From: Henricia sp. BOLD:AAB3569
Lineage: Eukaryota > Echinodermata > Asteroidea > Spinulosida > Echinasteridae
NCBI GenBank assembly: GCA_037783545.1
Contig: JBBELK010000518.1
Span: 434,001 to 498,000 of the forward strand
Reading direction: 5' to 3'
DNA length: 64,000 bases
A program made the position numbers and the translations under genes. A model generated the notes under the pieces. The model worked only from the letters and a program-made list of their open reading frames with translations. It was not told the DNA's origin and ran no database searches. This document shows, piece after piece, positions 38,502 to 63,864 of the stretch; the stretch's first letter is position 1, and each line of letters starts with the position of its first letter.

Positions 38502-39500
38502 ATATTTTATGGCATCTTCGGAAACTAAGGCCCTTGATGCCATCAACTATACGGTTTTAGCTTTAACTATACTATATTATATTATCAACTTGAGATGACG
38601 AAGAAGGAGTTGCAGTTTTAGAAGTGGGAGGAAAACCCCCAGAGAAATGCCCCAGGGGAAAACCCACGCGGTCAAGTAGGGACTGCAAACCCAATCCACA
38701 TACACGCCCCGGATTCGAACCCGGGACGACGCCAGAGGTGAAAGGCTTTTTATAAAATGTTTTATTCGTCCGAATAAAACACGCAAGCCAGGTCAGTCCA
38801 ATCCAATGTCGATTCCGTTTATACCAGTTCCTCCATCATTGTCGTTGCCAGTCCAGGTCATTATCCACTATCATCACCAGTCCAGGTCGAGCCAACATCA
38901 AGACCGCAGACACGGATCCAATCGTGTTCCAAAATTGTACCGGCGTTCCCAGTGACGTACGTACTTGTCACTCCATCATTAAGCAACGTTCCAGGACATC
39001 ACGGGATTCCGCGAAAAACTCCTCCAAACCACCTATGTGCAAGGGTATAGTCCTTTGGAAAGCAGTCATCACAGGCTTTTTATAAAATGTTTAATTCGTC
39101 CGAATAAAACACGCAAGCCAGGTCAAGTCCAGTCCAATGTCGCGATTCCATTTATAACCAGTTCCTCCGTCATTGTCGTTGCCAGTCCAGGTCAATATCC
39201 ACTATCATCACCAGTCCAGGTCGAGCCAACATCAAGACCGCAGACACGGATCCAATCGTGTTCCAAAATTGTACCGGCGTTCCCGGTGACGTACGTACTG
39301 GTCACTCCGTCATTATGCAACGTTCCAGGACATCACACGGGATTCCGCAAAACATCTCCTCCAAACCACCTATGTGCAAGGGTAGTCCTTTGGAAAGCGG
39401 TCATCACAGGCAGGCCAGCAGAAAGAACCACTACGCCAACCCGAAGCGGTCATCACAGGCAGGCCAGCAGAAAGAACCGCTATACGCCAACCCGACTGCC
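38465..39500 (-). mobile_element. SINE composite 2
   Basis: Same layout: (GTT)n tail 38465-38501, body to 38746, two satellite units 38747-39410, short units to the outer head at 39500. Shares the boundary word TGCTCCAACAG with composite 1, so the units form a tandem. Confidence 0.75.
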
Positions 39501-39794
39501 CCTGCTCCAACAGAACAACCAGGGGCCTGTTTCACTAAACACTAAGATGCGTCTTGAGCATCCTTAAGTCCGGTTATAGAACTTAGTGTAAGATGCATCT
39601 TAGCGGGAGTTTCACAAATACCACTAAGACGCATACGGCACTTAGTACCCATCTCACTAAGTTGCATACAGGTCTTAGCCTACGTCTCGTCGAGACGAGA
39701 CTTAGGAACTGTTCTTAGTGTGAATTGTCATGTGATCAATTTTGCGCCAAATTTAAAAGTTGTTGTTTACTAAAATAAATCAGTGTGTTACTCG

Positions 39795-40279
39795 ATGATG
39801 GCCGATCTGCAAATATTGCTGGGCGATCGGGTGGCCAGAGGACTTCGTCGAGAGCGAGTTTTTCGCGACAGGCAAAACCCTTTAGATAAATACAATGAAG
39901 ATGAAATGTACGAGCGGTATAGGTTTACGAGAAGAGGTGTAATGCAAATTTTAGACATCTTGGCTCCGCAATTGGATCGGCAAACATCCAGAAGTCATGC
40001 CATCGATGGGCGGATTCAAGTATTTACGGCGCTGAAATTCTACGCGTGTGGCACCGTTCACAACAACCATGGTGACCATCACGGCATCAGCAAGGCCAGC
40101 GCAAGCAGGATTGTCCGCCGGGTGAACAGTATTCTTGTGCGGATGAAAGACGACATCATTTCATTTCCAACAACCCCAGCTGAAGTTGCGGCCACTCAAG
40201 CTGACTTCTACGCTGTAAGCGGTATGCCCCGGGTTGTGAGTGCCGTGGATTGCACTCACGTTTTGTTGAGGGGTGCAAA
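39795..40279 (+). pseudogene. Harbinger transposase (HARBI1-like), first exon only
   Basis: About 162 residues from the first of two adjacent ATGs (MMADLQILLGDRVARGL). It has the helix-rich N-terminal region typical of HARBI1-like transposases and ends in VSAVDCTHVLL, which carries the first catalytic Asp of the DDE triad. A GTAAGT donor follows (40280), so the ORF stop just after it is intronic. About half the family's usual length of roughly 350 residues; the exons for the remaining DDE residues are lost, so it cannot act alone. Confidence 0.8.
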
Positions 40280-40718
40280 GTAAGTCTATTTCATTTGATA
40301 TCATTACAAAATTTAAAGCATACAATAAAGTTCCACAAGATAGCAGGAATGCGGTTTGTCACACGTTAGGATAATCTATGATGAAAGGGTACAGTGGGGT
40401 AAAATATATTAACCGTGCATATGAACAAAAAAGTTGAATACACTGTAAATCTGTTTCGTAAAAAAACATATAAACAAAAAAATATATAACATATAAACCA
40501 ACAAACTTGTTGTGTAAAAAATATTCAACTTAATGTGTAATTTTTGTTTCAGAAGTTAGGCCTATGTAAAGTTTGTGAACACATTTTTTACGCAACTTGT
40601 GTAGTTTTTTTTAATGTAGCTTGTTTAGCTTTTTTATGCAGCTTGTGTAACTTTTTATGCACCTTATTTAACTTTTTACGCAACTTGTGTAAATTTATGT
40701 AACTTGTTTGTAGTTTTT
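40280..40718. other. Intron remnant of the Harbinger gene with short AACTTGTGTA repeats
   Basis: AT-rich; degenerate iterations of CAACTTGTGTAACTTTTTAT from about 40590 to 40710. No downstream exon before composite unit 3. Confidence 0.6.
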
Positions 40719-41739
40719 AAGGCCCTTGATGCCATCAACTATACGGTTTTAGCTTTAACTATACTATATTATATTATCAACTTGAGATGACGAAGAAGGA
40801 GTTGCAGTTTTAGAAGTGGGAGGAAAACCCCCAGAGAAATGCCCCAGGGGAAAACCCACGCGGTCAAGTAGGGACTGCAAACCCAATCCACATACACGCC
40901 CCGGATTCGAACCCGGGACGACGCCAGAGGTGAAAGGCTTTTTATAAAATGTTTTATTCGTCCGAATAAAACACGCAAGCCAGGTCAGTCCAATCCAATG
41001 TCGATTCCGTTTATACCAGTTCCTCCATCATTGTCGTTGCCAGTCCAGGTCATTATCCACTATCATCACCAGTCCAGGTCGAGCCAACATCAAGACCGCA
41101 GACACGGATCCAATCGTGTTCCAAAATTGTACCGGCGTTCCCAGTGACGTACGTACTTGTCACTCCATCATTGAGCAACGTTCCAGGACATCACGGGATT
41201 CCGCGAAAAACTCCTCCAAACCACCTATGTGCAAGGGTATAGTCCTTTGGAAAGCAGTCATCACAGGCTTTTTATAAAATGTTTAATTCGTCCGAATAAA
41301 ACACGCAAGCCAGGTCAAGTCCAGTCCAATGTCGCGATTCCATTTATAACCAGTTCCTCCGTCATTGTCGTTGCCAGTCCAGGTCAATATCCACTATCAT
41401 CACCAGTCCAGGTCGAGCCAACATCAAGACCGCAGACACGGATCCAATCGTGTTCCAAAATTGTACCGGCGTTCCCGGTGACGTACGTACTGGTCACTCC
41501 GTCATTATGCAACGTTCCAGGACATCACACGGGATTCCGCAAAACAACTCCTCCAAACCACCTATGTGCAAGGGTAGTCCTTTGGAAAGCGGTCATCACA
41601 GGCAGGCCAGCAGAAAGAACCACTACGCCAACCCGAAGCGGTCATCACAGGCAGGCCAGCAGAAAGAACCACTACGCCAACCCGAAGCGGTCATCACAGG
41701 CAGGCCAGCAGAAAGAACCGCTACGCCAACCCGACTGCC
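40719..41739 (-). mobile_element. SINE composite 3, near-identical to composite 2
   Basis: 40719-41757 repeats 38527-39521 with only a few differences plus one extra 46-bp unit. It lacks the (GTT)n tail, so the duplicate starts inside the SINE body. It also explains the loss of the Harbinger 3' end. Confidence 0.85.
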
Positions 41740-43399: not shown

Positions 43400-44060
43400 G
43401 CTTGTATGGTTTACCCAACATAATTTTGTTTGCATATGTTGGCGAAGTACATGTATGACCCACCAAACGTCCAAATGAAATTCTCCAACTTTGTTTTGAA
43501 GCGCCCTCTCTTGTCTTCATAATCTCCAACAGATGGAGAACATTTTGTTTGTCTGAGCATATTGCTCAACCTTTTAATACTTTCAGCAACAGGTAAACAA
43601 ATACCCAATAAATAGCCGCTGTTTCCCCAATTTACAGAACTTTGCATGTAACCAACATTGGTTTTCTGGATGTTTTATCCAACAGAACATTTTCTGCATA
43701 TGTTGAGGAAATATGACACAAAAAACAGTCAGAATGAAATTATCCAACTTTATTTTACCCAGCATTTTTTTAAAGTATACTTTCAAGCGCCCTCTCTTGT
43801 CTTCACAATCTCCAACAGAGGGAGAAAATATAATGTTTGTGTTTAATGTGCTCAACCTTTTAATACTTCCAGCAAGCGGTAAAAAAATACCAAATTAATA
43901 GCCGCCGTTTCTCCAATTTACAAAACTGTGCATGTAACCAACGTTGGTGTTCGGGATGTTTTACCCAACAGAACATTTTCTGCATGTTGAAGAAATATGA
44001 CCCAACAAACGTCAAAATGAAATTCACCTTATTTATTTTACTCGGCATTTGTTACAGTGT
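43400..44060. repeat. Tandem repeat, about 2.5 units of about 255-275 bp
   Basis: Units share GTAACCAACGTTGG-type starts, TTTTACCCAACAGAACATTT, an AATGAAATTATCCAACTTT block and CAAGCGCCCTCTCTTGTCTT. The third unit is cut short. Confidence 0.75.
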
Positions 44061-45239
44061 AGAATGTACATTACAACAAATAATCATCAAATTAAAGGTA
44101 TTAGTAATACCTCCACCTGTGGAAGGTGGAGAAAATTAAAACAAAAACATCTTGTGAGTTTAATTAGAACGAAAAAGCATCTTCTCCTGGTATCCATCTG
44201 GAACCAAGCCCTTTAGGCTCTTCGGACATCGTCCGGCTCTCAACAACTCAAACTCAAAAACATAGGCTACAATTTAACAATTAAGAGTAAGATTACTACA
44301 TTGTTGTTTAGTACTATCGTGTGAAAGAAATACATAAAGATTGTCTGAACACAACACGGACAAGCAGAAATCGTAAGCATGAAAGATTTCCATGTGCTAC
44401 GACAATCAGAGAAATCTCTGAGATCGAGAACTCGCCCAGGAACACGACAATGCTTTTGGCGTCGGTCCATCAGCAAAAACTGCTGGCGCTCGGAGGCCAC
44501 GAAAAACCTCCTTTTATCTTTTCTTTGTTTTTAGGAGGAAACGTGGGTGCATCCTAGGACACCAAAAGGAGGCGCACCCCCCTTATCATCGCCACATTAC
44601 CTAGGTTTGTTCCCGGGGTTTGAAACAAATTGGAATTTGTTAAAGGGGGTAAGCTAAAGGGAAAAACATCCATGCATATCTATTCAAACATAAAGACAAC
44701 GAAAAACACGCAACATACTAGTCCCACCTGACCAAGCGCAGCCCATTGCAAGAGGCCTTTGGGCATTGTCCGGTTCGTTCCAACTCAAAATATTCAAATT
44801 TGTCATGTAACTGTACAACAGGTTACTCTCGACGAGTTATTGTCTAGTATATATATACATTGTATATACAAGTATATATAAATATACATGTATGTACCTA
44901 TTTGACCAGCCCTTTAAGCTTTTCAAGTTTCGAATGTGCATCTTGCATAACGATAGTACTACAACCATTATTCTAGAAACCAAGCGCTTTCAAAATTCAC
45001 CTGGTCTCGTTCACGTTACACCAATGTATATGATATGTATTTCAACCAAAACGTCGTACTGCTCTTAGCTTGATTCGACTTGAATTATCAAAACAAGAAG
45101 TATAGGCACAAATGCATTCACTAGTCGAAAATGAAATATCAATTTATGAGTGAATGAGCAAAAGTAGGAACGGGGCAAAACAACCGTTTAATAAAGCACA
45201 GCATTGCTTTAGAGGCCAGAGTGGATAATCACCGATGCA
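44061..45239. other. Noncoding stretch, no gene seen
   Basis: A GGTATTAGTAATACC palindrome-like word near 44097 and a TATATATACA run near 44850-44890. Nothing else recognised. Confidence 0.5.
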
Positions 45240-45710
45240 ACATACGTAAATTATTCCTGTAGTGTTGAAAACGGGAGGAATTTACATCGGTCGTGCATAC
45301 TTCGATCGAATTGCAATAAGTAACTCGATTTTTATAATAAAGTCCAAGCGTGCTTGAAGCGTCACTATACCATGGCTTGATGGAGAATTGCGCCAACTTA
45401 TAATGCGCCAACGAGATCGTGCACATAATGTAGCTAAAAAGTCGCGCTCATTGAAAAATTGGGATATGTACAAAAAGTTAAGAAATTATGTTACTAACAA
45501 AGTTAGAAAAAAGAAAAGCGAATATTTCACTTCGGCAATTGAGGAAAATAAGGATAACTCATCACTCTTGTGGAAGAAACTTAAAAAGTCCTTCCTAATA
45601 AACAAAAATGTGTCCCAAGTTCAATCATCTCCTCAAACGGAGAATATGTTGAAGACCCTACCGACATCGCAAATAATTTCAATGAATATATTTCAACAAT
45701 TGGTGTACGT

Positions 45711-46487
45711 ATGGCCACTGAGAATCACACAAGTTCAAATGAGGCCGATGATTCTCACGACCATTCTCTTGTTTCTTCACCAGATTACGAACATTGTTCT
45801 CTCCCTAGTATCTCAGAAGAGTTTGTACAAAAGCAAATTGCATCTTTGTCGGTTGGGAAAGCAACAGGCCCAGATGGTTTTAGCGTTAATATGATTAAAA
45901 TGGCTGCACCTTTTATTACTAAGTCTTCAACGAAAATATTTAACCTCTCGATAATAAATGAACAGTATCCCAAGGCATGGAAACATGCTTCAGTTACACC
46001 TATTCATAAAGGAGGCGATAAGTGCAACGCGTGTAATTACCGACCTATATCAATCTTGCCGATTATCTCTAAAATCCTAGAAAGATGGATACACTCAAAC
46101 ATGTACTCGTACCTTGATGAAAACAATTTCATTCCTGTTTGTCAATCTGGATTTCGGCCTTTGCACTCAACAGAAAGTACACTGAACGATTTAACAAACG
46201 AGTGTCTTCAAGCTATGGATCACGGGAGAATGACCGGAACAGTTTTCCTAGATTTCAGTAAGGCATTTGACTGCGTTGACCATAAAATTCTTTTAGAAAA
46301 ATTAGAAAAACTGAACATGTCGATTTCGGTAATAAACTGGTTTAAGTCCTGTCTCAGTGATCGCAGTCAAACCGTTAATATTAGTAAACATATATCAAAA
46401 TCCTTGCCTGTAAGTGTCGGTGTACCACAAAGATCAATTCTGGACCCATTATTGTTTATCATATATACATATGACCTGCCTCTTTAA
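45711..46487 (+). pseudogene. LINE reverse transcriptase core, unit 1
   Basis: 258-residue open stretch with RT fingers and palm motifs (GPDGF, SGFRPLHSTES, FLDFSKAFDCVDH, GVPQRSILDPLLF). It stops at TAA just before the YADD box, which is found in another frame 25 bp on. The real frame enters upstream through an IANNFNEYISTIG-like stretch. Copies at 49635-50411 and 53559-54335 are the same; the copy at 57483-58304 lacks this stop. Confidence 0.85.
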
Positions 46488-46873
46488 GTATCCAAAAAGT
46501 GTAATATATGTATGCCGATGACTCTACACTAACTTGCAGTTCCGAAAGCATTGTCGAAATTGAAACTAGCCTTAACAAGTCATTAGACATGATTCATCTG
46601 TGGTCCGTTAAAAATAAAATAAAAATTAATGCCAGTAAAACTAAATGTATGCTAATTGGCTCAAAGAAAAAGATAAGCGCGCATAAGCTCGGAGTACACA
46701 TCAATAATGATCAAGTGCATATATATATTAAACGTTGAATCGTTTGAATGCTTGGGTGTTATTATTGACGAAACCTTAAGTTGGAACCAACATGTCGAAT
46801 TTCTCGAAATTAGCTATGTTAAAAAGAATTCGGGAATTTGTAACTCAAAAGCACATGAACATACTTATGTTAA

Positions 46874-47829
46874 TGCTACGTTTACACCATGTCCCCGGCA
46901 GTCCCGGCGCCCCGGTTTGGCCAAAACGTAGCGTGCCGTGGAACTTTTGTCGTCTTTTTATTACTTTGGCTCGACTCGGCCCTAGTTGGGCCGGTGTGTT
47001 GCGTTCTACCACGGTGCGTTACGTCCCGGTACGTAAAGCGTGGCGCGCCGTGCCGGTTCCGGGCCGCGAGGCGGACGGCGCGCTACGTTTCAAGCGCCGT
47101 TCCACTACGGATGGGTCCACGTCCCAGGCCGGCCTGCTAAGTTCTGATGCGGTGCATCACGTCCGTCCCGTTCGTGTCACGTTTGTTGTCCCGGCCCAAT
47201 ACGTTCCCGACGGTGTGCGAGGGTCTGCTGCGGCGCCCTGCGACTGAACGTGGCAGCTGTCACGTTTCACGCCCTGGTGGTCACCCGGTGGTCTCCCGGT
47301 GAGCCCCGGTGGGTATAAATAGTGCGCTCCACACCTTCATTTTCACTTCGTCCTGGAGCGCGACGCAGTGAGGCGTAACTGGCCGTGAGCAACAACCGTC
47401 ACACACCTTGGCGCACCGCAGTTTACCAGGCCGCATTCACACCATGCTGTGGCCGCTACCGTGTCGGGCCCTGGCAGACCGTGGGGTGCCGGGCTTCCAA
47501 ACGTGGCGGAGCGCGAGGCACCGGCCGCGATCAGAGGTCCCCGGCATCACAAGGTGACACACCCTGGTGAGTCAAGGCACACTGCGGTCCGTCACGCCCT
47601 GTGACGGAAGCCCCGTCCCACTGCGGCCCAGGACGATTCTCATTAGTGCCGGGACTGCCGGGGCAGATTTTTTGACAGAGCTGCTCACCGGCCGGTGGCA
47701 AGGGTGAGCTACGGTCATTCACGTTTCGCCACCCCGGTCCCCTACGCTCCCCGACGTCCATCCCGGTGCCTCCACGGTGCTCCTCTACCGGGGCGCCGGG
47801 ACTGCCGGGGACATGGTGTAAACGTAGCA
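46874..47829. mobile_element. Harbinger-type MITE, 956 bp, TIR TGCTACGTTTACACC, TAA duplication (unit 1, first)
   Basis: The ends TGCTACGTTTACACCATGTC and complement pair for about 40 bp. TAA flanks both sides (46871-46873, 47830-47832) and the LINE resumes in register. The interior is GC-rich, with CCGGGACTGCCGGGG-type words and a TATAAATAG in the middle. Units 2 and 3 repeat it at 50798-51753 and 54722-55677. Confidence 0.9.
47314..47322 (+). promoter_or_regulatory. TATA-box-like site with initiator-like TTCATTTTCAC downstream, in the MITE
   Basis: TATAAATAG, then TTCATTTTCAC starting about 24 bp after its 5' end. Present in every copy of the family seen (inverted at 48404-48412 and 59287-59295; direct at 61295-61303) and in units 2 and 3. 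It may be the promoter of a lost transposase gene. Confidence 0.4.
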
Positions 47830-47884
47830 TAAGTTTAGTCATGCCTAGTCTAGATTATTGTTGCACAGTATAGAGTGACCGTTA

Positions 47885-48852
47885 TGCTACGTTTACACCA
47901 TGTCCCGGCAGTCCCAGCGCCCCGGTAGAGGAGCACCGGGTAGGCACCGGGATGGACGTCGGGGAGCGTAGGGGACCGGGGTGGCGAAACGTGAATGACC
48001 GTAGCTCACCCTTGCCACCGGCCGGTGACCGGCCAGTGAGCATCTCTGTCAAAAAATTTGCCTCGGCAGTCCCGGCACTAATGAGAATCGTCCTGGGCCG
48101 CAGTGGAACAGGGGCTTCCGTCACATGGCGTGACGGACCGCAGTGTGCCTTGACTCACCGGGGTGTGGCACCGTGGGGTGCCGGGGGACCTCTGATCGCG
48201 GCCGGTGCCTCGCGATCCGCCACGTTTGGAAGCCCGGCAGCCCACGGTCTGCCAGGGCCCGTCACGGTAGTGGCCACAGCATTGTGTGAATGCGGCCTGG
48301 TGAACTGCGGTGTGCCAAGGTGTGTGACGGTTGTTGCTTACGGCCAGTTACGCCTCACTGCGTCGCGCTCCAGGACGAAGTGAAAATGAAGTTATGGAGC
48401 GCACTATTTATACCCACCGGGTGACCACCGAGGCGTGAAACGTGACAGCTGCCACGTTCAGTCGCAGGGCGCCGCAGCAGACCCTCGCACACCGTCGGGA
48501 ACGTATTGGGCCGGGACAACAAACGTGACACGAACGGGACGGACGTGAGGCACCGCATCATAACTTAGCAGGCCGGCCTGGGACGTGGACCCATCCGTAG
48601 TGGAACGGCGCTTGAAACGTAGCGCGCCGTCTCGGTTCCGGGGCGCGCCGTCCGCCTCGCGGCCCGGAACCGGCACGGCGCGCCACGCTTTCCGTACCGG
48701 GACGTAACGCACCGTGGTAGAACGCAACACACCGGCCCAACTAGGGCCGAGTCGAGCCAAAGTAATAAAAAGACAATAAAAGTTCCACAGCACGCCACGT
48801 TTTGACCAAACCGGGGCGCCGGGACTGCCGGGGACATGGTGTAAACGTAGCA
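47885..48852. mobile_element. Harbinger-type MITE, 968 bp, same family inverted, TTA duplication (unit 1, second)
   Basis: The same TIR pair with TTA on both sides (47882-47884, 48853-48855). Lies 55 bp from the first MITE in opposite orientation, so the two form a near-2-kb inverted pair. Units 2 and 3: 51809-52776 and 55733-56700. Confidence 0.9.
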
Positions 48853-49082
48853 TTACGCATCTCATAACACTGTCGTGAATAAATGCCTGAAACGTGCAGC
48901 CAGAATAATACCGAAATGCGATTTCCTAACGCCATCAGCTGACATGTTTAAAAAGCTCGACTGGCTTGCCTATCCAGAGAGAGTTAAATACAAGAAAGCT
49001 ATATTTGTCTTTAAAAGCATCAATTCCTTAGCCCTGCAGTATATATGGCAAGTCTAGCGGGAGTGCTAGTTCGTAGGCATAA

Positions 49083-49285
49083 TGCTACGTTTACACCATG
49101 TCTCCGGCAGCCCCGGTTTGGCCAAAACGTGGCGTGCCGTGGAACTTTGATTGTCTTTTTATTACTTTGGCTCGACTCGGCCCTAGTTGGGCCGGTGTGT
49201 TGCGTTCTACCACGGTGCGTTACGTCCCGGTACGGAAAGCGGACGGCGCGCCCCGGAACCGGGACGGCGCGCTACGTTTCAAGCG
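49083..49285. mobile_element. Third MITE copy, cut at the tandem junction
   Basis: Starts after TAA (49080-49082) with TGCTACGTTTACACC and stops at the AAGCG junction to the LINE. Units 2 and 3: 53007-53209 and 56931-57133. Confidence 0.85.
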
Positions 49286-52200
49286 TCACTATACCATGGC
49301 TTGATGGAGAATTGCGCCAACTTATAATGCGCCAACGAGATCGTGCACATAATGTAGCTAAAAAGTCGCGCTCATTGAAAAATTGGGATATGTACAAAAA
49401 GTTAAGAAATTATGTTACTAACAAAGTTAGAAAAAAGAAAAGCGAATATTTCACTTCGGCAATTGAGGAAAATAAGGATAACTCATCACTCTTGTGGAAG
49501 AAACTTAAAAAGTCCTTCCTAATAAACAAAAATGTGTCCCAAGTTCAATCATCTCCTCAAACGGAGAATATGTTGAAGACCCTACCGACATCGCAAATAA
49601 TTTCAATGAATATATTTCAACAATTGGTGTACGTATGGCCACTGAGAATCACACAAGTTCAAATGAGGCCGATGATTCTCACGACCATTCTCTTGTTTCT
49701 TCACCAGATTACGAACATTGTTCTCTCCCTAGTATCTCAGAAGAGTTTGTACAAAAGCAAATTGCATCTTTGTCGGTTGGGAAAGCAACAGGCCCAGATG
49801 GTTTTAGCGTTAATATGATTAAAATGGCTGCACCTTTTATTACTAAGTCTTCAACGAAAATATTTAACCTCTCGATAATAAATGAACAGTATCCCAAGGC
49901 ATGGAAACATGCTTCAGTTACACCTATTCATAAAGGAGGCGATAAGTGCAACGCGTGTAATTACCGACCTATATCAATCTTGCCGATTATCTCTAAAATC
50001 CTAGAAAGATGGATACACTCAAACATGTACTCGTACCTTGATGAAAACAATTTCATTCCTGTTTGTCAATCTGGATTTCGGCCTTTGCACTCAACAGAAA
50101 GTACACTGAACGATTTAACAAACGAGTGTCTTCAAGCTATGGATCACGGGAGAATGACCGGAACAGTTTTCCTAGATTTCAGTAAGGCATTTGACTGCGT
50201 TGACCATAAAATTCTTTTAGAAAAATTAGAAAAACTGAACATGTCGATTTCGGTAATAAACTGGTTTAAGTCCTGTCTCAGTGATCGCAGTCAAACCGTT
50301 AATATTAGTAAACATATATCAAAATCCTTGCCTGTAAGTGTCGGTGTACCACAAAGATCAATTCTGGACCCATTATTGTTTATCATATATACATATGACC
50401 TGCCTCTTTAAGTATCCAAAAAGTGTAATATATGTATGCCGATGACTCTACACTAACTTGCAGTTCCGAAAGCATTGTCGAAATTGAAACTAGCCTTAAC
50501 AAGTCATTAGACATGATTCATCTGTAGTCCGTTAAAAATAAAATAAAAATTAATGCCAGTAAAACTAAATGTATGCTAATTGGCTCAAAGAAAAAGATAA
50601 GCGCGCATAAGCTCGGAGTACACATCAATAATGATCAAGTGCATATATATATTAAACGTTGAATCGTTTAAATGCTTGGGTGTTATTATTGACGAAACCT
50701 TAAGTTGGAACCAACATGTCGAATTTCTCGAAATTAGCTATGTTAAAAAGAATTCGGGAATTTGTAACTCAAAAGCACATGAACATACTTATGTTAATGC
50801 TACGTTTACACCATGTCCCCGGCAGTCCCGGCGCCCCGGTTTGGCCAAAACGTAGCGTGCCGTGGAACTTTTGTCGTCTTTTTATTACTTTGGCTCGACT
50901 CGGCCCTAGTTGGGCCGGTGTGTTGCGTTCTACCACGGTGCGTTACGTCCCGGTACGTAAAGCGTGGCGCGCCGTGCCGGTTCCGGGCCGCGAGGCGGAC
51001 GGCGCGCTACGTTTCAAGCGCCGTTCCACTACGGATGGGTCCACGTCCCAGGCCGGCCTGCTAAGTTCTGATGCGGTGCCTCACGTCCGTCCCGTTCGTG
51101 TCACGTTTGTTGTCCCGGCCCAATACGTTCCCGACGGTGTGCGAGGGTCTGCTGCGGCGCCCTGCGACTGAACGTGGCAGCTGTCACGTTTCACGCCCTG
51201 GTGGTCACCCGGTGGTCTCCCGGTGAGCCCCGGTGGGTATAAATAGTGCGCTCCACACCTTCATTTTCACTTCGTCCTGGAGCGCGACGCAGTGAGGCGT
51301 AACTGGCCGTGAGCAACAACCGTCACACACCTTGGCGCACCGCAGTTTACCAGGCCGCATTCACACCATGCTGTGGCCGCTACCGTGTCGGGCCCTGGCA
51401 GACCGTGGGGTGCCGGGCTTCCAAACGTGGCGGAGCGCGAGGCACCGGCCGCGATCAGAGGTCCCCGGCATCACAAGGTGACACACCCTGGTGAGTCAAG
51501 GCACACTGCGGTCCGTCACGCCCTGTGACGGAAGCCCCGTCCCACTGCGGCCCAGGACGATTCTCATTAGTGCCGGGACTGCCGGGGCAGATTTTTTGAC
51601 AGAGCTGCTCACCGGCCGGTGGCAAGGGTGAGCTACGGTCATTCACGTTTCGCCACCCCGGTCCCCTACGCTCCCCGACGTCCATCCCGGTGCCTCCACG
51701 GTGCTCCTCTACCGGGGCGCCGGGACTGCCGGGGACATGGTGTAAACGTAGCATAAGTTTAGTCATGCCTAGTCTAGATTATTGTTGCACAGTATAGAGT
51801 GACCGTTATGCTACGTTTACACCATGTCCCGGCAGTCCCAGCGCCCCGGTAGAGGAGCACCGGGTAGGCACCGGGATGGACGTCGGGGAGCGTAGGGGAC
51901 CGGGGTGGCGAAACGTGAATGACCGTAGCTCACCCTTGCCACCGGCCGGTGACCGGCCAGTGAGCATCTCTGTCAAAAAATTTGCCTCGGCAGTCCCGGC
52001 ACTAATAAGAATCGTCCTGGGCCGCAGTGGAACAGGGGCTTCCGTCACATGGCGTGACGGACCGCAGTGTGCCTTGACTCACCGGGGTGTGGCACCGTGG
52101 GGTGCCGGGGGACCTCTGATCGCGGCCGGTGCCTCGCGATCCGCCACGTTTGGAAGCCCGGCAGCCCACGGTCTGCCAGGGCCCGTCACGGTAGTGGCCA

Positions 52201-53204
52201 CAGCATTGTGTGAATGCGGCCTGGTGAACTGCGGTGTGCCAAGGTGTGTGACGGTTGTTGCTTACGGCCAGTTACGCCTCACTGCGTCGCGCTCCAGGAC
52301 GAAGTGAAAATGAAGTTATGGAGCGCACTATTTATACCCACCGGGTGACCACCGAGGCGTGAAACGTGACAGCTGCCACGTTCAGTCGCAGGGCGCCGCA
52401 GCAGACCCTCGCACACCGTCGGGAACGTATTGGGCCGGGACAACAAACGTGACACGAACGGGACGGACGTGAGGCACCGCATCATAACTTAGCAGGCCGG
52501 CCTGGGACGTGGACCCATCCGTAGTGGAACGGCGCTTGAAACGTAGCGCGCCGTCTCGGTTCCGGGGCGCGCCGTCCGCCTCGCGGCCCGGAACCGGCAC
52601 GGCGCGCCACGCTTTCCGTACCGGGACGTAACGCACCGTGGTAGAACGCAACACACCGGCCCAACTAGGGCCGAGTCGAGCCAAAGTAATAAAAAGACAA
52701 TAAAAGTTCCACAGCACGCCACGTTTTGACCAAACCGGGGCGCCGGGACTGCCGGGGACATGGTGTAAACGTAGCATTACGCATCTCATAACACTGTCGT
52801 GAATAAATGCCTGAAACGTGCAGCCAGAATAATACCGAAATGCGATTTCCTAACGCCATCAGCTGACATGTTTAAAAAGCTCGACTGGCTTGCCTATCCA
52901 GAGAGAGTTAAATACAAGAAAGCTATATTTGTCTTTAAAAGCATCAATTCCTTAGCCCCGCAGTATATATGGCAAGTCTAGCGGGAGTGCTAGTTCGTAG
53001 GCATAATGCTACGTTTACACCATGTCTCCGGCAGCCCCGGTTTGGCCAAAACGTGGCGTGCCGTGGAACTTTGATTGTCTTTTTATTACTTTGGCTCGAC
53101 TCGGCCCTAGTTGGGCCGGTGTGTTGCGTTCTACCACGGTGCGTTACGTCCCGGTACGGAAAGCGGACGGCGCGCCCCGGAACCGGGACGGCGCGCTACG
53201 TTTC
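49281..53204 (+). repeat. Array unit 2
   Basis: Content as unit 1 at +3,924: LINE pieces 49281-50794, 51757-51805 and 52780-53003, with the RT stretch 49635-50411 and three MITEs between. Private change: ACTAATAAGAATCG near 52010. Confidence 0.95.
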
Positions 53205-56200
53205 AAGCGTCACTATACCATGGCTTGATGGAGAATTGCGCCAACTTATAATGCGCCAACGAGATCGTGCACATAATGTAGCTAAAAAGTCGCGCTCATT
53301 GAAAAATTGGGATATGTACAAAAAGTTAATAAATTATGTTACTAACAAAGTTAGAAAAAAGAAAAGCGAATATTTCACTTCGGCAATTGAGGAAAATAAG
53401 GATAACTCATCACTCTTGTGGAAGAAACTTAAAAAGTCCTTCCTAATAAACAAAAATGTGTCCCAAGTTCAATCATCTCCTCAAACGGAGAATATGTTGA
53501 AGACCCTACCGACATCGCAAATAATTTCAATGAATATATTTCAACAATTGGTGTACGTATGGCCACTGAGAATCACACAAGTTCAAATGAGGCCGATGAT
53601 TCTCACGACCATTCTCTTGTTTCTTCACCAGATTACGAACATTGTTCTCTCCCTAGTATCTCAGAAGAGTTTGTACAAAAGCAAATTGCATCTTTGTCGG
53701 TTGGGAAAGCAACAGGCCCAGATGGTTTTAGCGTTAATATGATTAAAATGGCTGCACCTTTTATTACTAAGTCTTCAACGAAAATATTTAACCTCTCGAT
53801 AATAAATGAACAGTATCCCAAGGCATGGAAACATGCTTCAGTTACACCTATTCATAAAGGAGGCGATAAGTGCAACGCGTGTAATTACCGACCTATATCA
53901 ATCTTGCCGATTATCTCTAAAATCCTAGAAAGATGGATACACTCAAACATGTACTCGTACCTTGATGAAAACAATTTCATTCCTGTTTGTCAATCTGGAT
54001 TTCGGCCTTTGCACTCAACAGAAAGTACACTGAACGATTTAACAAACGAGTGTCTTCAAGCTATGGATCACGGGAGAATGACCGGAACAGTTTTCCTAGA
54101 TTTCAGTAAGGCATTTGACTGCGTTGACCATAAAATTCTTTTAGAAAAATTAGAAAAACTGAACATGTCGATTTCGGTAATAAACTGGTTTAAGTCCTGT
54201 CTCAGTGATCGCAGTCAAACCGTTAATATTAGTAAACATATATCAAAATCCTTGCCTGTAAGTGTCGGTGTACCACAAAGATCAATTCTGGACCCATTAT
54301 TGTTTATCATATATACATATGACCTGCCTCTTTAAGTATCCAAAAAGTGTAATATATGTATGCCGATGACTCTACACTAACTTGCAGTTCCGAAAGCATT
54401 GTCGAAATTGAAACTAGCCTTAACAAGTCATTAGACATGATTCATCTGTAGTCCGTTAAAAATAAAATAAAAATTAATGCCAGTAAAACTAAATGTATGC
54501 TAATTGGCTCAAAGAAAAAGATAAGCGCGCATAAGCTCGGAGTACACATCAATAATGATCAAGTGCATATATATATTAAACGTTGAATCGTTTAAATGCT
54601 TGGGTGTTATTATTGACGAAACCTTAAGTTGGAACCAACATGTCGAATTTCTCGAAATTAGCTATGTTAAAAAGAATTCGGGAATTTGTAACTCAAAAGC
54701 ACATGAACATACTTATGTTAATGCTACGTTTACACCATGTCCCCGGCAGTCCCGGCGCCCCGGTTTGGCCAAAACGTAGCGTGCCGTGGAACTTTTGTCG
54801 TCTTTTTATTACTTTGGCTCGACTCGGCCCTAGTTGGGCCGGTGTGTTGCGTTCTACCACGGTGCGTTACGTCCCGGTACGTAAAGCGTGGCGCGCCGTG
54901 CCGGTTCCGGGCCGCGAGGCGGACGGCGCGCTACGTTTCAAGCGCCGTTCCACTACGGATGGGTCCACGTCCCAGGCCGGCCTGCTAAGTTCTGATGCGG
55001 TGCCTCACGTCCGTCCCGTTCGTGTCACGTTTGTTGTCCCGGCCCAATACGTTCCCGACGGTGTGCGAGGGTCTGCTGCGGCGCCCTGCGACTGAACGTG
55101 GCAGCTGTCACGTTTCACGCCCTGGTGGTCACCCGGTGGTCTCCCGGTGAGCCCCGGTGGGTATAAATAGTGCGCTCCACACCTTCATTTTCACTTCGTC
55201 CTGGAGCGCGACGCAGTGAGGCGTAACTGGCCGTGAGCAACAACCGTCACACACCTTGGCGCACCGCAGTTTACCAGGCCGCATTCACACCATGCTGTGG
55301 CCGCTACCGTGTCGGGCCCTGGCAGACCGTGGGGTGCCGGGCTTCCAAACGTGGCGGAGCGCGAGGCACCGGCCGCGATCAGAGGTCCCCGGCATCACAA
55401 GGTGACACACCCTGGTGAGTCAAGGCACACTGCGGTCCGTCACGCCCTGTGACGGAAGCCCCGTCCCACTGCGGCCCAGGACGATTCTCATTAGTGCCGG
55501 GACTGCCGGGGCAGATTTTTTGACAGAGCTGCTCACCGGCCGGTGGCAAGGGTGAGCTACGGTCATTCACGTTTCGCCACCCCGGTCCCCTACGCTCCCC
55601 GACGTCCATCCCGGTGCCTCCACGGTGCTCCTCTACCGGGGCGCCGGGACTGCCGGGGACATGGTGTAAACGTAGCATAAGTTTAGTCATGCCTAGTCTA
55701 GATTATTGTTGCACAGTATAGAGTGACCGTTATGCTACGTTTACACCATGTCCCGGCAGTCCCAGCGCCCCGGTAGAGGAGCACCGGGTAGGCACCGGGA
55801 TGGACGTCGGGGAGCGTAGGGGACCGGGGTGGCGAAACGTGAATGACCGTAGCTCACCCTTGCCACCGGCCGGTGACCGGCCAGTGAGCATCTCTGTCAA
55901 AAAATTTGCCTCGGCAGTCCCGGCACTAATGAGAATCGTCCTGGGCCGCAGTGGAACAGGGGCTTCCGTCACATGGCGTGACGGACCGCAGTGTGCCTTG
56001 ACTCACCGGGGTGTGGCACCGTGGGGTGCCGGGGGACCTCTGATCGCGGCCGGTGCCTCGCGATCCGCCACGTTTGGAAGCCCGGCAGCCCACGGTCTGC
56101 CAGGGCCCGTCACGGTAGTGGCCACAGCATTGTGTGAATGCGGCCTGGTGAACTGCGGTGTGCCAAGGTGTGTGACGGTTGTTGCTTACGGCCAGTTACG

Positions 56201-57128
56201 CCTCACTGCGTCGCGCTCCAGGACGAAGTGAAAATGAAGTTATGGAGCGCACTATTTATACCCACCGGGTGACCACCGAGGCGTGAAACGTGACAGCTGC
56301 CACGTTCAGTCGCAGGGCGCCGCAGCAGACCCTCGCACACCGTCGGGAACGTATTGGGCCGGGACAACAAACGTGACACGAACGGGACGGACGTGAGGCA
56401 CCGCATCATAACTTAGCAGGCCGGCCTGGGACGTGGACCCATCCGTAGTGAAACGGCGCTTGAAACGTAGCGCGCCGTCTCGGTTCCGGGGCGCGCCGTC
56501 CGCCTCGCGGCCCGGAACCGGCACGGCGCGCCACGCTTTCCGTACCGGGACGTAACGCACCGTGGTAGAACGCAACACACCGGCCCAACTAGGGCCGAGT
56601 CGAGCCAAAGTAATAAAAAGACAATAAAAGTTCCACAGCACGCCACGTTTTGACCAAACCGGGGCGCCGGGACTGCCGGGGACATGGTGTAAACGTAGCA
56701 TTACGCATCTCATAACACTGTCGTGAATAAATGCCTGAAACGTGCAGCCAGAATAATACCGAAATGCGATTTCCTAACGCCATCAGCTGACATGTTTAAA
56801 AAGCTCGACTGGCTTGCCTATCCAGAGAGAGTTAAATACAAGAAAGCTATATTTGTCTTTAAAAGCATCAATTCCTTAGCCCCGCAGTATATATGGCAAG
56901 TCTAGCGGGAGTGCTAGTTCGTAGGCATAATGCTACGTTTACACCATGTCTCCGGCAGCCCCGGTTTGGCCAAAACGTGGCGTGCCGTGGAACTTTGATT
57001 GTCTTTTTATTACTTTGGCTCGACTCGGCCCTAGTTGGGCCGGTGTGTTGCGTTCTACCACGGTGCGTTACGTCCCGGTACGGAAAGCGGACGGCGCGCC
57101 CCGGAACCGGGACGGCGCGCTACGTTTC
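53205..57128 (+). repeat. Array unit 3
   Basis: Content as unit 1 at +7,848, RT stretch 53559-54335. Private changes include TTAATAAATT near 53328 and GTGAAACGG near 56449. Confidence 0.95.
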
Positions 57129-58575
57129 AAGCGTCACTATACCATGGCTTGATGGAGAATTGCGCCAACTTATAATGCGCCAACGAGATCGTGCACATAA
57201 TGTAGCTAAAAAGTCGCGCTCATTGAAAAATTGGGATATGTACAAAAAGTTAAGAAATTATGTTACTAACAAAGTTAGAAAAAAGAAAAGCGAATATTTC
57301 ACTTCGGCAATTGAGGAAAATAAGGATAACTCATCACTCTTGTGGAAGAAACTTAAAAAGTCCTTCCTAATAAACAAAAATGTGTCCCAAGTTCAATCAT
57401 CTCCTCAAACGGAGAATATGTTGAAGACCCTACCGACATCGCAAATAATTTCAATGAATATATTTCAACAATTGGTGTACGTATGGCCACTGAGAATCAC
57501 ACAAGTTCAAATGAGGCCGATGATTCTCACGACCATTCTCTTGTTTCTTCACCAGATTACGAACATTGTTCTCTCCCTAGTATCTCAGAAGAGTTTGTAC
57601 AAAAGCAAATTGCATCTTTGTCGGTTGGGAAAGCAACAGGCCCAGATGGTTTTAGCGTTAATATGATTAAAATGGCTGCACCTTTTATTACTAAGTCTTC
57701 AACGAAAATATTTAACCTCTCGATAATAAATGAACAGTATCCCAAGGCATGGAAACATGCTTCCGTTACACCTATTCATAAAGGAGGCGATAAGTGCAAC
57801 GCGTGTAATTACCGACCTATATCAATCTTGCCGATTAACTCTAAAATCCTAGAAAGATGGATACACTCAAACATGTACTCGTACCTTGATGAAAACAATT
57901 TCATTCCTGTTTGTCAATCTGGATTTCGGCCTTTGCACTCAACAGAAAGTACACTGAACGATTTAACAAACGAGTGTCTTCAAGCTATGGATCACGGGAG
58001 AATGACCGGAACAGTTTTCCTAGATTTCAGTAAGGCTTTTGACTGTGTTGACCATAAAATTCTGTTAGAAAAATTAGAAAAACTGAACATGTCGATTTCG
58101 GTAATAAACTGGTTTAAGTCCTGTCTCAGTGATCGCAGTCAAACCGTTAATGTTAGTAAACATATATCAAAATCCTTGCCTGTAAGTGTCGGTGTACCAC
58201 AAAGATCAATTCTGGACCCATTATTGTTTATCATATATACATATGACCTGCCTCTTTATGTATCCGAAAAGTGTAATATATGTATGCCGATGACTCTACA
58301 CTAACTTGCAGTTCCGAAAGCATTGTCGAAATTGAGACTAGCCTCAACAAGTCATTAGACATGATTCATCTGTGGTCCGTTAAAAATAAAATCAAAATTA
58401 ATGCCAGTAAAACTAAATGTATGCTAATTGGCTCAAAGAAAAAGATAAGCGCGCATAAGCTCGGATTACATATCAATAATGATCAAGTGCATATATATAT
58501 TAAACGTTGAATCGTTTAAATGCTTGGGTGTTATTATTGACGAAACCTTAAGTTGGAACCAACATGTCGAATATG
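57129..58575 (+). mobile_element. Partial fourth unit: mosaic LINE copy
   Basis: 57129 to about 57760 matches the array units almost exactly. From about 57764 to 58570 it differs by roughly 2% (CTTCCGTTAC, GATTAACTC, GACTGTGTTG and others) and reads through the stop found in units 1-3 (LPLYVSEKCNI). The YADD box is still in a shifted frame (58284). The LINE then ends at ATGTCGAATATG, at a point different from units 1-3. Confidence 0.85.
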
Positions 58576-58833
58576 TAATGCTACGTTTACACCATGTCCC
58601 CGGCAGTCCCGGCGCCCCGGTTTGGCCAAAACGTGGCGTGCCGTGGAACTTTGATTGTCTTTTTATTACTTTGGCTCGACTCGGCCCTAGTTGGGCCGGT
58701 GTGTTGCGATCTACCACGGTGCGTTACGTCCCGGTACGGAAAGCGGACGGCGCGCCCCGGAACCGGGACGGCGCGCTACGTTTCAAGCGCCGTTCCACTA
58801 CGGATGGGTCCACATCCCAGGCCGGCCTGCTAA

Positions 58834-59735
58834 TGCTACGTTTACACCATGTCCCCGGCAGTCCCGGTGCCCCGGTAGAGGAGCACCGGGGAGGCACCGG
58901 GATGGACGTCAGGGAGCGTATAGGGGATCGGGGTGGCGAAACGTGAATGACCGTAGCTCACCCTTGCCACCGGCCGGTGAGCAGCTCTGTCAAAAAATTT
59001 GCCCCGGCAGTCCCGGCACTAATGAGAATCGTCCTGGGCCGCATTGGAACGGGGCTTCCGTCACAGGGCGTGACGGACCGCAATGTGCCTTGACTCATCG
59101 GGGTGTGGCACATTGGGGTGCCGGGGAACTCTGATCGCGGCCGGTGCCTCGCGCTCCGCCACGTTTGGAAGCCCGGCACCCCACGGTCTGCCAGGGCCCG
59201 ACACGGTAGCGGCCACAGCATGGTGTGAATGCGGCCTGGTCAACTGCGGTGCGCCAAGGTGTGTGAAAATGAAGGTGTGGAGCGCACTATTTATACCAAC
59301 CGGGGCTCACCGGGAGACCACCGGGTGACCACCGGGGCGTGAAACGTGACAGCTGCCACGTTCAGTCGCAGGGCGCCGCAGCAGACCCTTGCACACCGTC
59401 GGGAACGTATTGGGCCGGGACAACAAACTTGACACGAACGGGACGGACGTGAGGCACCGCATTAGAACTTAGCAGGTCAACCTGGGACGTGGACCCATCC
59501 GTAGTGGAACGGCGCTTAAAACGTAGCGCGCCGTCCGCCTCGCGGCCCGGAACCGGCACGGCGCGCCACGCTTTACGTACCGGGACGTAACGCACCATGG
59601 TAGAACGCAACACACCGGCCCAACTAGGGCCGAGTCGAGCCAAAGTAATAAAATGACGACAAAAGTTCCACGGCACGCTACGTTTTGGCCAAACTGGGGC
59701 GCCGGGACTGCCGGGGACATGGTGTAAACGTAGCA
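58834..59735. mobile_element. 902-bp MITE of the same family nested at TAA
   Basis: TGCTACGTTTACACC ends with TAA at 58831-58833 and 59736-59738. The interior matches the inverted second MITE of the array units. Self-insertion of one family copy into another. Confidence 0.85.
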
Positions 59736-59738
59736 TAA

Positions 59739-60849
59739 AGCCCAGGTCACACCAACGCCGGATACAACAAGGATTATCCCGGATAGCCACAGAATGACCC
59801 TCTTCCGGGGCGAATCGGGATGAAATCGTCCAGACCGTCCCCTCGACGGTGGAAAAACCCAGACACCCCCGTACTGTCCCGTACCATGACCAACACGGAA
59901 ACAGTACGTTTTACCAAGGATTGACTACCATCCCGGACCCAACACGAACCGTCACGGAGACTATAAATACAGGTGCATTTTTCATTGGTTTTCACTTTTC
60001 GACAGGACTTTGTTGTGTCCGGGGTGGTCCGGGATGGTAGGTGGCGACAACGTGTTAGGAAAATTATGCCGTATCGCCAAGCATCATCACGTTGCCACTA
60101 CGGATTCACTACGTACTGTCCCGAACCCAACACGAACCGAACACGAACCATCCCGGATTGGGCTTCCATCCCGAATCACCCCGACTTTTTTAAACAGTTT
60201 AAAAACGCCCAGGACTATCCCGATTCATCCAGTACCATCCAGAACTACTCCGGACCTAACACGAACCAACCAGGAACTAATATTTCAGTCCGGTGTCACG
60301 ATCTCAGATGTTCCGCGTGCTCAGATGTTCCGATGACGTCACGGAACATTTCAGCATGTTGCGTGCACGATCTCAGATGTTCCGCGTACTCAGATGTCCC
60401 GGTGTAAAAGGTAAAACTGTCCCCTTGTAAATGTGTCCGCGTGCTTACTGGCGCATGGCCTCATCGTACGTACATGTGTTTATCTCTTAATTCTGACTCT
60501 CAGAAAGCCCTGCTGCGTAAGACCCCTTGCTTAAGTAATCAATTATTAATTAAGTAATCGTTTTTTTTCTGTAAATACGGCGAAACGGCATAAACGCTCC
60601 GCCATGTCCGCCGGCCGCCATCTTGCAAAAATGTCACTACATCTGCGCGCATCAAAGTACGTACATGGCGCGAATTCTGCTGATCAACTCAGCACTGCAC
60701 CTAAACTGGTACATGGTATAATTACATACGCTGTGCGCATGACGTTCCGTGACGTAACCTACCATATTTGGTCATCGGAACTTCTGAGTACGCGGAACAT
60801 CTGAGAGCGGGACACCGGGATGGTTCGGGACCTTGGTGAGACTGGGGCT
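59739..60849. mobile_element. 1,111-bp MITE, TIR AGCCCAGGTCACACCAA, TAA duplication
   Basis: The left end AGCCCAGGTCACACCAACG pairs with the right end (reverse complement AGCCCCAGTCTCACCAAGG). TAA at 59736-59738 and 60850-60852. The interior iterates TCCCGGA, CACGAACC and CAGATGTTCCG words. TATAAATAC at 59962 is followed by TTTTCATTGGTTTTCAC. No coding part. Confidence 0.8.
59962..59970 (+). promoter_or_regulatory. TATA-box-like site in the AGCCC MITE
   Basis: TATAAATAC followed 15-30 bp on by TTTTTCATTGGTTTTCAC, mirroring the layout in the TGCTACG family. Function inferred. Confidence 0.35.
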
Positions 60850-60882
60850 TAAGTTCTGATGCGGTGCCTCACGTCCGTCCCG

Positions 60883-61166
60883 GGCGGTCGGGTTGGCGTA
60901 CGGGTTCTTTCCTCGCCTTTCACCTCTGGGGTCCCGGGTTCGAATCCGGGACGTGTATGTGGATTGGGTTTGCAGTCCCTACTTGACCGCGTGGGTTTTC
61001 CCCTGGGGCATTTCTCTGGGGGTTTTCCCTCCCACTTCTAAAACTGCAACTCCTTCTTCGTCATCTCAAGTTGATAATATAGTATAGTTAAAGCTAAAAC
61101 CGTATAGTTGATGGCATAAAGGGCCTTAGTTGCCGAAGATGCCATAAATTAACAACAACAACAACA
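60883..61166 (+). mobile_element. Complete tRNA-derived SINE, 284 bp, 12-bp target duplication
   Basis: The tRNA-like head has A box GGTTGGCGTACGG and B box GGTTCGAATCC about 35 bp apart. The body has GTGGGTTTTCCCCTGGGG and a (CAA)n tail. ACGTCCGTCCCG flanks both sides (60871-60882, 61167-61178), as expected for LINE-driven insertion. This is the unsplit form of the SINE composites at 37.5-41.7 kb. Confidence 0.9.
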
Positions 61167-62088
61167 ACGTCCGTCCCGTTCGCGTCACGTTTGTTGTCCC
61201 GGCCAAATATGTTCCCGACGGTCTGCGAGGGTCTGCTGCGGCGCCCTGCGACTGAACATGGCAGCTGTGACGTCTCCCTGTGAACTCCGGTGGGTATAAA
61301 TAGTGCGCTCCACACCTTCATTTTCAAACCGTATAGTTCTCGAGCGCTGCCGCAGCAACATCATCCTCATCGTTGGCGCACCGCAGCTCATGCTAGGTTC
61401 CCACTATCACGATTCGCGCCACGATTGAAATCGTGGTCTTAATCGTGGAGTAATCGTGGTGATCCTATCAGATCTTATCAGATCTTGAGGTCAGTCGTGG
61501 CAATCGTGTTGATCGTAGACAATTTTTGGACGGTTCAAACATTTTCTACGATCAACACGAATAATTTTCAATCGTGATCATCGCATCAGTTCGTATTGGA
61601 TCGTAACAAAGCGCGACAGATCGCATCTAATCGTGCTTCCAAATCGTGGTGATCGGGATCAACCTTGGACAAGACAAACACCACGCTCTGTCACGATCTG
61701 TTACGCTCTGTCGGGTACCATAGCTCACGACTGTAATATCCAAGCACATATTATGTTCTCTGTATGGCACTTATAATCCTCCATACTATATGGTATGTAA
61801 CCTCCTTATGTTAATGAGATCTACATGTACCACAAGGTTACTACGTGGCATGTTGGCAGCCATTAAACAATAGCACTATGCAAAGGTACTAAGTGTGTCT
61901 GTTCTCCAACTCAATCAACCTGCATCTTGAATACCACAACGACCTGACACGATTGACTCACGAGTAGATATGAGTTGATACGAGTAGATGCGAGTAGTCA
62001 CGATTTTTCACGGACGCTCATGTGATCTGTTACGAGCACATCTTTACTGTCAACTTGCTTTTGCTAGTATTTTTGGAGCCTTTTAGAG

Positions 62089-62360
62089 ATGCCAGCCAAG
62101 GGTACCAGAGGCAAGAAGGGAAAGGGCAAGGCTGCCCCACCCCCTGAGCCTAAACCAGTCCAGCCAGAGCTGGCACCAGAGGAGGCAGAGGAGACCACCC
62201 CCACCCAGAAAGCCAAGAGAAAGAAAACGGTAACTGCCTTTACTGAAAAGCAAAAGGTGGAAATCATTGAGTTCCTCGTGAGAAATGAGGTCCTCTACAG
62301 CAAACGCCTTGCGGGGTTCAAGGATGTCACCCAGAAGGGGGATCTCTGGGCTGCACAGAA
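62089..62360 (+). pseudogene. Harbinger accessory DNA-binding protein (MADF/Myb-like), N-terminal part
   Basis: MPAKGTRGKKGKGK start with a long basic/Pro-rich leader, then TEKQKVEIIEFLVRNEVLYS and KGDLWAAQ, resembling the start of a MADF/Myb-like domain carried by Harbinger elements. At about 62360 it runs directly into the antisense transposase sequence, so the rest of the domain is deleted. Confidence 0.6.
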
Positions 62361-62949
62361 AAGAAGCCCTTGTAATTGTAGTAGAGGCCAGTGTGGAGTG
62401 GCTTCTTGATAGCAATGTGTTTGCCATCCAGGGCCCCAATAGCGTGGGGGATGTTCCATCTCTGCTCAAACTGATTAGCTAGGGCTGTCCAGGGGGTCAC
62501 AGGTAGGCTGAACACCTCATCTTTGTACGCTTGCACAATTGCCTGGCACACTTCTGGAACCATCTCTGAGATGCTGGACACTCCACACCTGAAGGCATAC
62601 GCAAGAGACCGATAGTTGTCTCCAGTGGCAAGGTGCCTCAGTGTCACTGCCAGTTTCAGTCCAGGTGAGAGGGGTTACCTGAAACTGGTGAGTTCCCTCT
62701 CAATAGCTGGGGCCACCCTCTGCAAGACTTCATCGAAGAGCTGTGGTGTTAACCTTGTGTAGTTTTGGAACGCTACTGGATCCTCCAGCCTCAATTGGGT
62801 GTCTAGGAGGCTAAAGAACTAGCCAAGCAGCTCTCCCGGGGTTGTGGCTGGTCTGGCTGCTGCTCGTCTTCTTCCTCTCTGGCGATAATGTAAGCATACA
62901 GTAATACTGCAAATGTCACGTTGTCATCATCCTCAACTCCTGCCATCAT
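62327..62949 (-). pseudogene. Harbinger transposase (DDE_Tnp_4 type), N-terminal half, broken
   Basis: Minus strand. MMAGVEDDDNVTFAVLLYAY at the start (62949); a LEDPVAFQNYTRLTPQLFDE block in another frame near 62800; then [19 protein letters not shown], a [15 protein letters not shown] block and [14 protein letters not shown], which carries the first catalytic Asp. At least two frames and stops near 62680 and 62820. Sequence after [10 protein letters not shown] is deleted, removing the rest of the DDE triad. Convergent with the MADF-like remnant. Confidence 0.75.
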
Positions 62950-63503
62950 CAATGATTGTGGGTTGTAGTCTTCACTCTGTAGAAGTTAAAGAAACAATGA
63001 AGTCCATGGTCAGTCGGGCTGTATATATACCCGTCGGGGTCCAATCGTGGCTCAAATCGTGATCACTCTCGATCCCGATCATGAAAGACATCGCGACCAC
63101 AATCGTATCCGATCGCAACAGAGCGCATCAGTTCGTGATGATCGTATCGGAACGTATCGGAACGTATCGGAACGTACCAGATCGTCCCAAATCGGGGACC
63201 CCGATCGTGCTGATCGTGTCAGATCGGGACCCAATCGTGGACTCAATCGGGACAATCCTATCGTAACGTATCTTATCGTATCTGAACGGGAGCCCAGATC
63301 GTGACAGATCGTGTCACCTGGAATTGACCAATCGTGACTATATCGCATCCAAGCCCACCAAATCGTACCAGAACGTATCTACTCGCATCAACTCGTATCC
63401 AAACGTGAACTTTCAGAAAAGGAAACAAAAATTCCACGATCATGAGCTACGAATGGCCAATCGTGGGGTTCGTAACGGATCGCACGACAGTGGGTACCTA
63501 GCA
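62950..63503. repeat. Right subterminal region of the Harbinger element
   Basis: Many ATCGTG, GATCGTATCGGAACGT and AACTCGTATC words; three exact tandem copies of ATCGGAACGT near 63147-63176. A left counterpart lies at 61391-62040. Likely transposase-binding repeats. Confidence 0.6.
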
Positions 63504-63864
63504 TCACCGGGCCGCATTCACACCATGCTGTGGCCACTACCGTGACGGGCCCTGGCAGACCGTGGGGTGCCGGGCTTTCAAACGTGGCGGAGCGTGAGGC
63601 ACCGGCCGCGATCAGAGGTCCCCGGCACCCCACGGTGCCACACCCCGGTGAGTCAAGGCACACTGCGGTCCGTCACGCCCTGTGACGGAAGCCCCGTCCC
63701 ACTGCGGCCCAGGACGATTCTCATTAGTGCCGGGACTGCCGGGCCAAAATTGTTGACAGAGCTGCTCACTGGCCGGTCACCGGCCGGTGGCAAGGATGAG
63801 CTACTGTCATTCACGTTTCGCCACCCCGGTCCCCTACGCTCCCCGACGTCCATCCCGGTGCCGT

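Follow-up and report, generated by a model that had tools for sequence, protein, structure and literature searches.

A 3,924-bp tandem array of a decayed LINE with three nested MITEs in Henricia sp., probably begun through a five-base microhomology joint

A window of 64,000 nucleotides from Henricia sp. BOLD:AAB3569 (GenBank assembly GCA_037783545.1, contig JBBELK010000518.1, positions 434,001 to 498,000) contains a short tandem array made up of transposons. Three full head-to-tail units of exactly 3,924 bp occupy positions 45357-57128 of the window and are followed by one partial unit. Each full unit consists of a decayed long interspersed nuclear element (LINE) and three copies of a miniature inverted-repeat transposable element (MITE), named E1, E2 and E3 in their order along the unit. 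At every unit end, the third MITE meets the beginning of the next unit across the five bases AAGCG. On balance, we favor an origin in which a dead LINE that already held its nested MITEs was duplicated through this microhomology, the copy number rose by unequal exchange, and the right edge was swapped with a diverged copy of the same element. In this view, the array results passively from recombination and serves in turn as a substrate for it, and no function is indicated.

Self-comparison of the window at an offset of 3,924 and blastn both delimit the array, with positions 45354-54648 matching 49278-58572. A 3.9-kb repeat at an exact offset is far beyond chance, and the constant offset with few base differences agrees with the description in an earlier note on this DNA. 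The full units are free of insertions or deletions (indels) relative to one another and differ only by substitutions: five between units 1 and 2, three between units 2 and 3, and six between units 1 and 3, at seven columns altogether. Partial unit 4, which that note does not list, is more distant, with 14, 14, and 15 differences from units 1, 2, and 3, respectively. Across the four copies, 20 columns vary, and 13 of these are fixed differences that set partial unit 4 apart from the full units. With partial unit 4 as outgroup, units 2 and 3 have a derived base in common at column 1246, and private derived bases are present in unit 1 (column 1390) and unit 3 (column 126). This pattern, drawn from few sites, is compatible with an ordinary genealogy.

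The near identity of the units is also what would be seen if the assembly had multiplied a single or double unit, or had joined two haplotypes so that partial unit 4 represents the other one. Indeed, partial unit 4 is 1.6% diverged beyond column 635 (13 fixed differences in columns 636-1444) and is followed by a different insertion, as in an alternative haplotype. However, the three full copies differ in register at their seven columns, the window contains no N, and a simple haplotype duplication predicts a pair of copies separated by allelic divergence, whereas here there are three that differ by ∼0.1%. We consider an artefact of this kind unlikely; a wrong haplotype switch confined to the right edge would be a compatible variant of it.

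The host element is assigned to the non-long-terminal-repeat (non-LTR) retrotransposons, or LINEs, by its LINE-type reverse transcriptase (RT). A search of the RT open reading frame (ORF; Table 1) against the PDB gave ten matches. The best of them (3.3e-14) carries the name RNA-directed DNA polymerase, LINE-1 ORF2p chains are found at E values of 4e-14 to 1.7e-13, and R2 chains come after them. The ORF is the same in units 2 and 3 and extends to 315 aa in partial unit 4, which is without the stop that closes the frame at 46487 in units 1-3. The frame shifts both before and after a YADD stretch, which we take to be an RT motif, and the element is thus decayed. The later 3′ part of the LINE was not found in the window, and a scan of viral contigs for relatives of the RT gave five pattern matches, none of them confirmed.

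All three full units carry the three MITEs at the same bases, so the insertions preceded the amplification, and the statement in the earlier note that the LINE was already interrupted by three MITEs is borne out. A 3-bp TWA target duplication flanks each of the three complete copies of the family (TAA at E1, TTA at E2, and TAA at an inner copy to the right of the array), whose perfect terminal inverted stretches measure 43, 22, and 34 bp, respectively. As the TWA duplications and terminal inverted repeats (TIRs) match the criteria for this class, the MITEs are presumably PIF/Harbinger-type non-autonomous elements. The MITE-overlapping ORFs at 47874-48380 and 58449-58943 gave no Pfam family, the whole elements and an autonomous partner not having been searched for, and the 15-base TIR had no match in the literature text searched. 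E1 and E2 are mutually inverted and form a quasi-palindrome with arms 91% identical in all three full units. When the empty sites are joined, the LINE pieces continue by eye in one frame, which is interrupted by a stop in the piece separating E1 from E2 and by two others close to E3.

The junction reads GCTACGTTTC-AAGCG-TCACTATAC at 49271, 53195, and 57119, that is, at three of the three unit ends, with no other occurrence on this strand of the window. The same MITE/AAGCG/LINE joint at each boundary had been claimed before, and this claim holds; a literal 25-mer given with it, containing two Gs, has no match, as the G of GTCACTATAC is the last base of AAGCG itself. At the left source (45357), the sequence is GCTTG-AAGCG-TCACTATAC. 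On the MITE side, GCTACGTTT(C/T) is followed by AAGCG in all four copies that continue beyond this position (E1, E2, and the inner and outer copies to the right of the array). Homology of at least five bases at a random joint has a probability of 0.0046 by formula and of 0.0033 in 200,000 random joints between these regions of the window, and the five-base homology at the junction exceeds chance (P about 0.003-0.005). Breakage led by a hairpin was also considered and dropped: the MITE breakpoint offers a 7-bp stem, but its fold is ordinary (z −0.62), with 46 of 200 shuffles folding at least as well. The corresponding values are z 0.87 at the left site (162 of 200 shuffles as good) and z 0.87 at the product junction (161 of 200).

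One exactly repeated junction and very low divergence between units would likewise fit a concatemer, as expected if the nested LINE had been excised through AAGCG as a 3.9-kb circle, amplified by rolling-circle replication and reintegrated. A foreign integration site is allowed by the lack of a LINE domain upstream of 45357. A concatemer could begin at any phase, however, whereas the array begins exactly at the junction base. Such a start comes free with an in-place duplication and would be required of a circle only if it inserted through the same five bases. The divergence of partial unit 4 from the other units is a further point against a circle, and we regard this route as very unlikely.

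The right edge of the array has a history of its own. Partial unit 4 aligns with the array without gaps (blastn: 1,447 columns, 98.96%), and a difference-free stretch of at least 635 columns, like the one with which it opens, has a probability of 0.007 anywhere and of 0.0005 at the left end. Because it shows no indels against the array, it shares the frame changes of the RT region, and independent retrotransposition as its source is ruled out on these two grounds. It thus descends from the same dead LINE copy, as a DNA-level copy or an allele. The match to the array ends at 58572, and six bases farther on lies another MITE (58579), whose site differs from those of E1-E3. As the edge enters a diverged LINE copy and not the rest of MITE 3, simple in-place duplication is insufficient; what is needed is either an additional exchange, involving an allele or a sister copy, or a first joint made between two different copies. 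The duplication followed by exchange that the earlier note proposed is in keeping with the nested LINE, the repeated junction, the 5-bp homology and the few differences, and falls short at this edge.

A crossover in the last unit within the first 0.6 kb and a first joint between two copies are both compatible with the data here. Under the second option, AAGCG would have linked MITE 3 of a copy A with the 5′ side of a diverged copy B, making duplication and fusion a single event, and later exchange would have multiplied the unit of copy A. Both the absent rest of MITE 3 and the diverged right-hand copy with another MITE would be accounted for; yet columns 1-635 of unit 4, without a fixed difference, still call for conversion or an older allelic mosaic. 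Joining in one step is retained as a tentative alternative and is, in our estimate, well below an even prospect. It overlaps with the favored explanation, and the likelihoods given to the different readings are not mutually exclusive.

The outer MITE adjoining partial unit 4 lies in four pieces (58579-63862) and, besides the inner copy, is interrupted by an element at 59739-60849 that has TAA on both sides and imperfect TIRs (AGCCC..). It also holds a SINE-like (short interspersed nuclear element) insert, placed by eye at about 60883-61166, with a CAA tail and a 12-bp repeat at both ends (60871 and 61167), and an ∼2.1-kb TIR element at 61390-63504 whose HTH_Tnp_4 match (E 0.018) is weak and does not reach the curated cut-off. 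By eye, the LINE frame of units 1-3 shifts at 46800, the point at which partial unit 4 departs (58572). This shift adjoins the TAA site of the outer MITE and could be a scar of imprecise excision.

In the favored reading, to which we would give somewhat better than even chances, a decayed LINE copy first took up three MITEs of a single TWA-target family, E1 and E2 in mutually inverted orientation. A break inside MITE 3 would then have been joined via AAGCG to the same word on the 5′ side of the LINE on a sister or homologous chromosome, yielding a tandem pair, and out-of-register homologous exchange would have raised this pair to three full units. Finally, the array would have traded its right edge with a diverged version of this dead LINE, either an allele or a paralogous sister copy, that carried its own MITE at another site; the exchange would lie inside roughly the first 0.6 kb of a unit.

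Several observations weigh against this course of events. The first concerns the left edge. No Pfam family was detected in six frames over 43500-45357, so an upstream endonuclease domain was not found, and the ORF at 45358-45894 also matched none. The recognizable LINE thus appears to start near the left breakpoint at 45357, and the breakpoint may coincide with the 5′ end of the LINE, a coincidence that the favored model does not explain. The placement of 45357 within the LINE, as the earlier note had it, is not proved by these searches. The absent endonuclease fits a 5′-truncated copy, and our claim is limited to a partial LINE. By eye, the frame just upstream of 45357 (IKSKRA, stop, SVTIPWLDGEL) could be a decayed remnant of the LINE, and positions 45358-45600 may correspond to the stretch between endonuclease and RT. 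The second concerns the joined LINE frame, whose longest stop-free run is 70 aa, compared with 66 aa in the last piece alone. As this gain is small, the target duplications are the firmer evidence of insertion. The third concerns the missing parental sequences. The rest of MITE 3 beyond AAGCG was not found in the window by blastn with E1, whose hits outside the array come from the inner copy and from a single outer copy broken into four pieces. For this reason the right parental breakpoint is placed from the sister copies, and of the earlier claim that AAGCG is present at both parental sites, the part at 45357 is observed directly while the MITE site is reconstructed. Similarly, no further copy of the array LINE pieces 46801-46873, 47830-47884, and 48853-49082 lies to the right in the window, so the exchange partner, too, is deduced. 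Finally, the test for a mosaic is modest, its break having been chosen after the data were seen, and an erroneous assembly join would give much the same picture.

A bolder version would let one microhomology joint between two diverged copies of the same dead LINE both begin the tandem and fuse haplotypes, with the 2-kb inverted MITE pairs supplying the breaks for copy-number change, so that the array is a frozen first step toward a composite satellite by the transposon-graveyard route described below; we think this improbable. Breakage driven by the palindrome may have occurred and is offered as a possibility only. The available text of a review reports, for inverted Alus with a 52-bp spacer, frequent fork stalling only in E. 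coli and not in eukaryotic cells (PMC7999016). The inverted MITE pair has a comparable 55-bp spacer but arms about three times longer than those Alus.

The array is young and looks like a clear early stage in a known mode of satellite DNA origin. The available part of a 2025 review puts forward, as a hypothesis, that composite satellite monomers arise from "TE graveyards" of nested, degraded transposable elements (TEs), and calls the origin of such monomers an open question (PMC12628747). In that hypothesis as here, several transposons inserted into or beside each other were then tandemized, and each full unit of the present array is such a composite. In contrast to those monomers, which in the review hold only short TE-like segments (PMC12628747), the present units still allow the layers to be read along with two target duplications and the tandem junction, and there are only 3.4 units. 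Head-to-tail units of constant length (period 3,924) are as in satellite DNA, whereas 3.4 units fall short of the long arrays of satellite or macrosatellite DNA, and the label "macrosatellite" in the earlier note was generous.

Tandemized transposons are reported from many taxa, with microhomology-initiated joining and unequal exchange among the routes (PMC12628747 and PMC9659126, in the parts available). TE tandems ascribed in the review to microhomology-initiated end joining and non-allelic homologous recombination likewise show short homology at the joint and later exchange between units; unlike in those, the joint here lies between two elements, one nested in the other (or between the MITE and the 5′ flank of the LINE) (PMC12628747). 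TE dimers as satellite seeds (McGurk and Barbash, as described in PMC12628747) are similar in that a few head-to-tail copies seed an array. These dimers are mainly ascribed to insertion-site preference (PMC12628747), whereas for the present array a single rearrangement affecting a dead element is the better fit. Among the matches listed for nested, tandem, satellite, or macrosatellite TEs, no title or opening of an abstract describes the present case. From the bases preserved here an order of events can be proposed, namely LINE decay, three MITE insertions, the microhomology joint and exchange, and because this order can be read, the route is testable in individuals of the species.

Table 1. 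Positions, in window coordinates, of the array, its components and the adjoining MITE copies
Feature	Position	Strand	Details
Unit 1 of the 3,924-bp array	45357-49280	+	Offset self-match
Unit 2	49281-53204	+	5 differences vs unit 1
Unit 3	53205-57128	+	3 differences vs unit 2, 6 vs unit 1
Partial unit 4 (1,444 bp)	57129-58572	+	Columns 1-635: 0 fixed differences; 636-1444: 13; no indels
AAGCG, left source of the junction microhomology	45357-45361	+	Homology length 5
Junction MITE 3/AAGCG/LINE, units 1-2	49271-49294	+	Same 24 bases at 53195 and 57119
RT ORF of decayed non-LTR element, 300 aa	45585-46487	+	Pfam RVT_1 1.1e-18, PDB matches
E1, 956-bp MITE-like element	46874-47829	+	Perfect terminal inverted stretch 43 bp, target duplication TAA
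LINE piece between E1 and E2	47833-47884	+	Assigned by reading frame, by eye
E2, 968-bp copy, inverted, 91% identical to E1	47885-48852	-	Terminal stretch 22 bp, target duplication TTA
E1-E2 quasi-palindrome, 1,979 bp, 55-bp spacer 47830-47884	46874-48852	.	Repeated in units 2 and 3
LINE piece between E2 and E3	48856-49082	+	Assigned by reading frame, by eye
E3, third copy, truncated at AAGCG	49083-49280	+	TAA on left side only
Left piece of outer MITE adjoining partial unit 4	58579-58833	+	Further pieces 60850-60882, 61167-61326, 63506-63862
Inner MITE copy of the same family, inside the outer MITE	58834-59735	-	TAA both sides

No tRNA genes were found, and Rfam gave no match at the gathering threshold. 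The window contains several other repeats. A second local array at 37457-41734 has three copies of an ∼1.0-kb unit, pairs of which are 90-99.5% identical; each unit comprises part of an inverted copy of the SINE-like sequence noted above and two or three copies of a 49-bp repeat. The regions 5200-12000 and 24626-32300 form a diverged duplication in pieces, the main ones 87-95% identical, in which the first copy holds an ORF matching Nucleotid_trans (PF03407, 6.9e-32) and the second has one that is likewise 336 aa long. Short-period tandem arrays are located at 12309-12633, 23052-23666, 28141-28731, and 33006-33423, with unit lengths that include 21, 42, about 25-52, and 21 bp. For the 21-bp array at 12.3 kb, a partner in inverted orientation lies at 14.8 kb.

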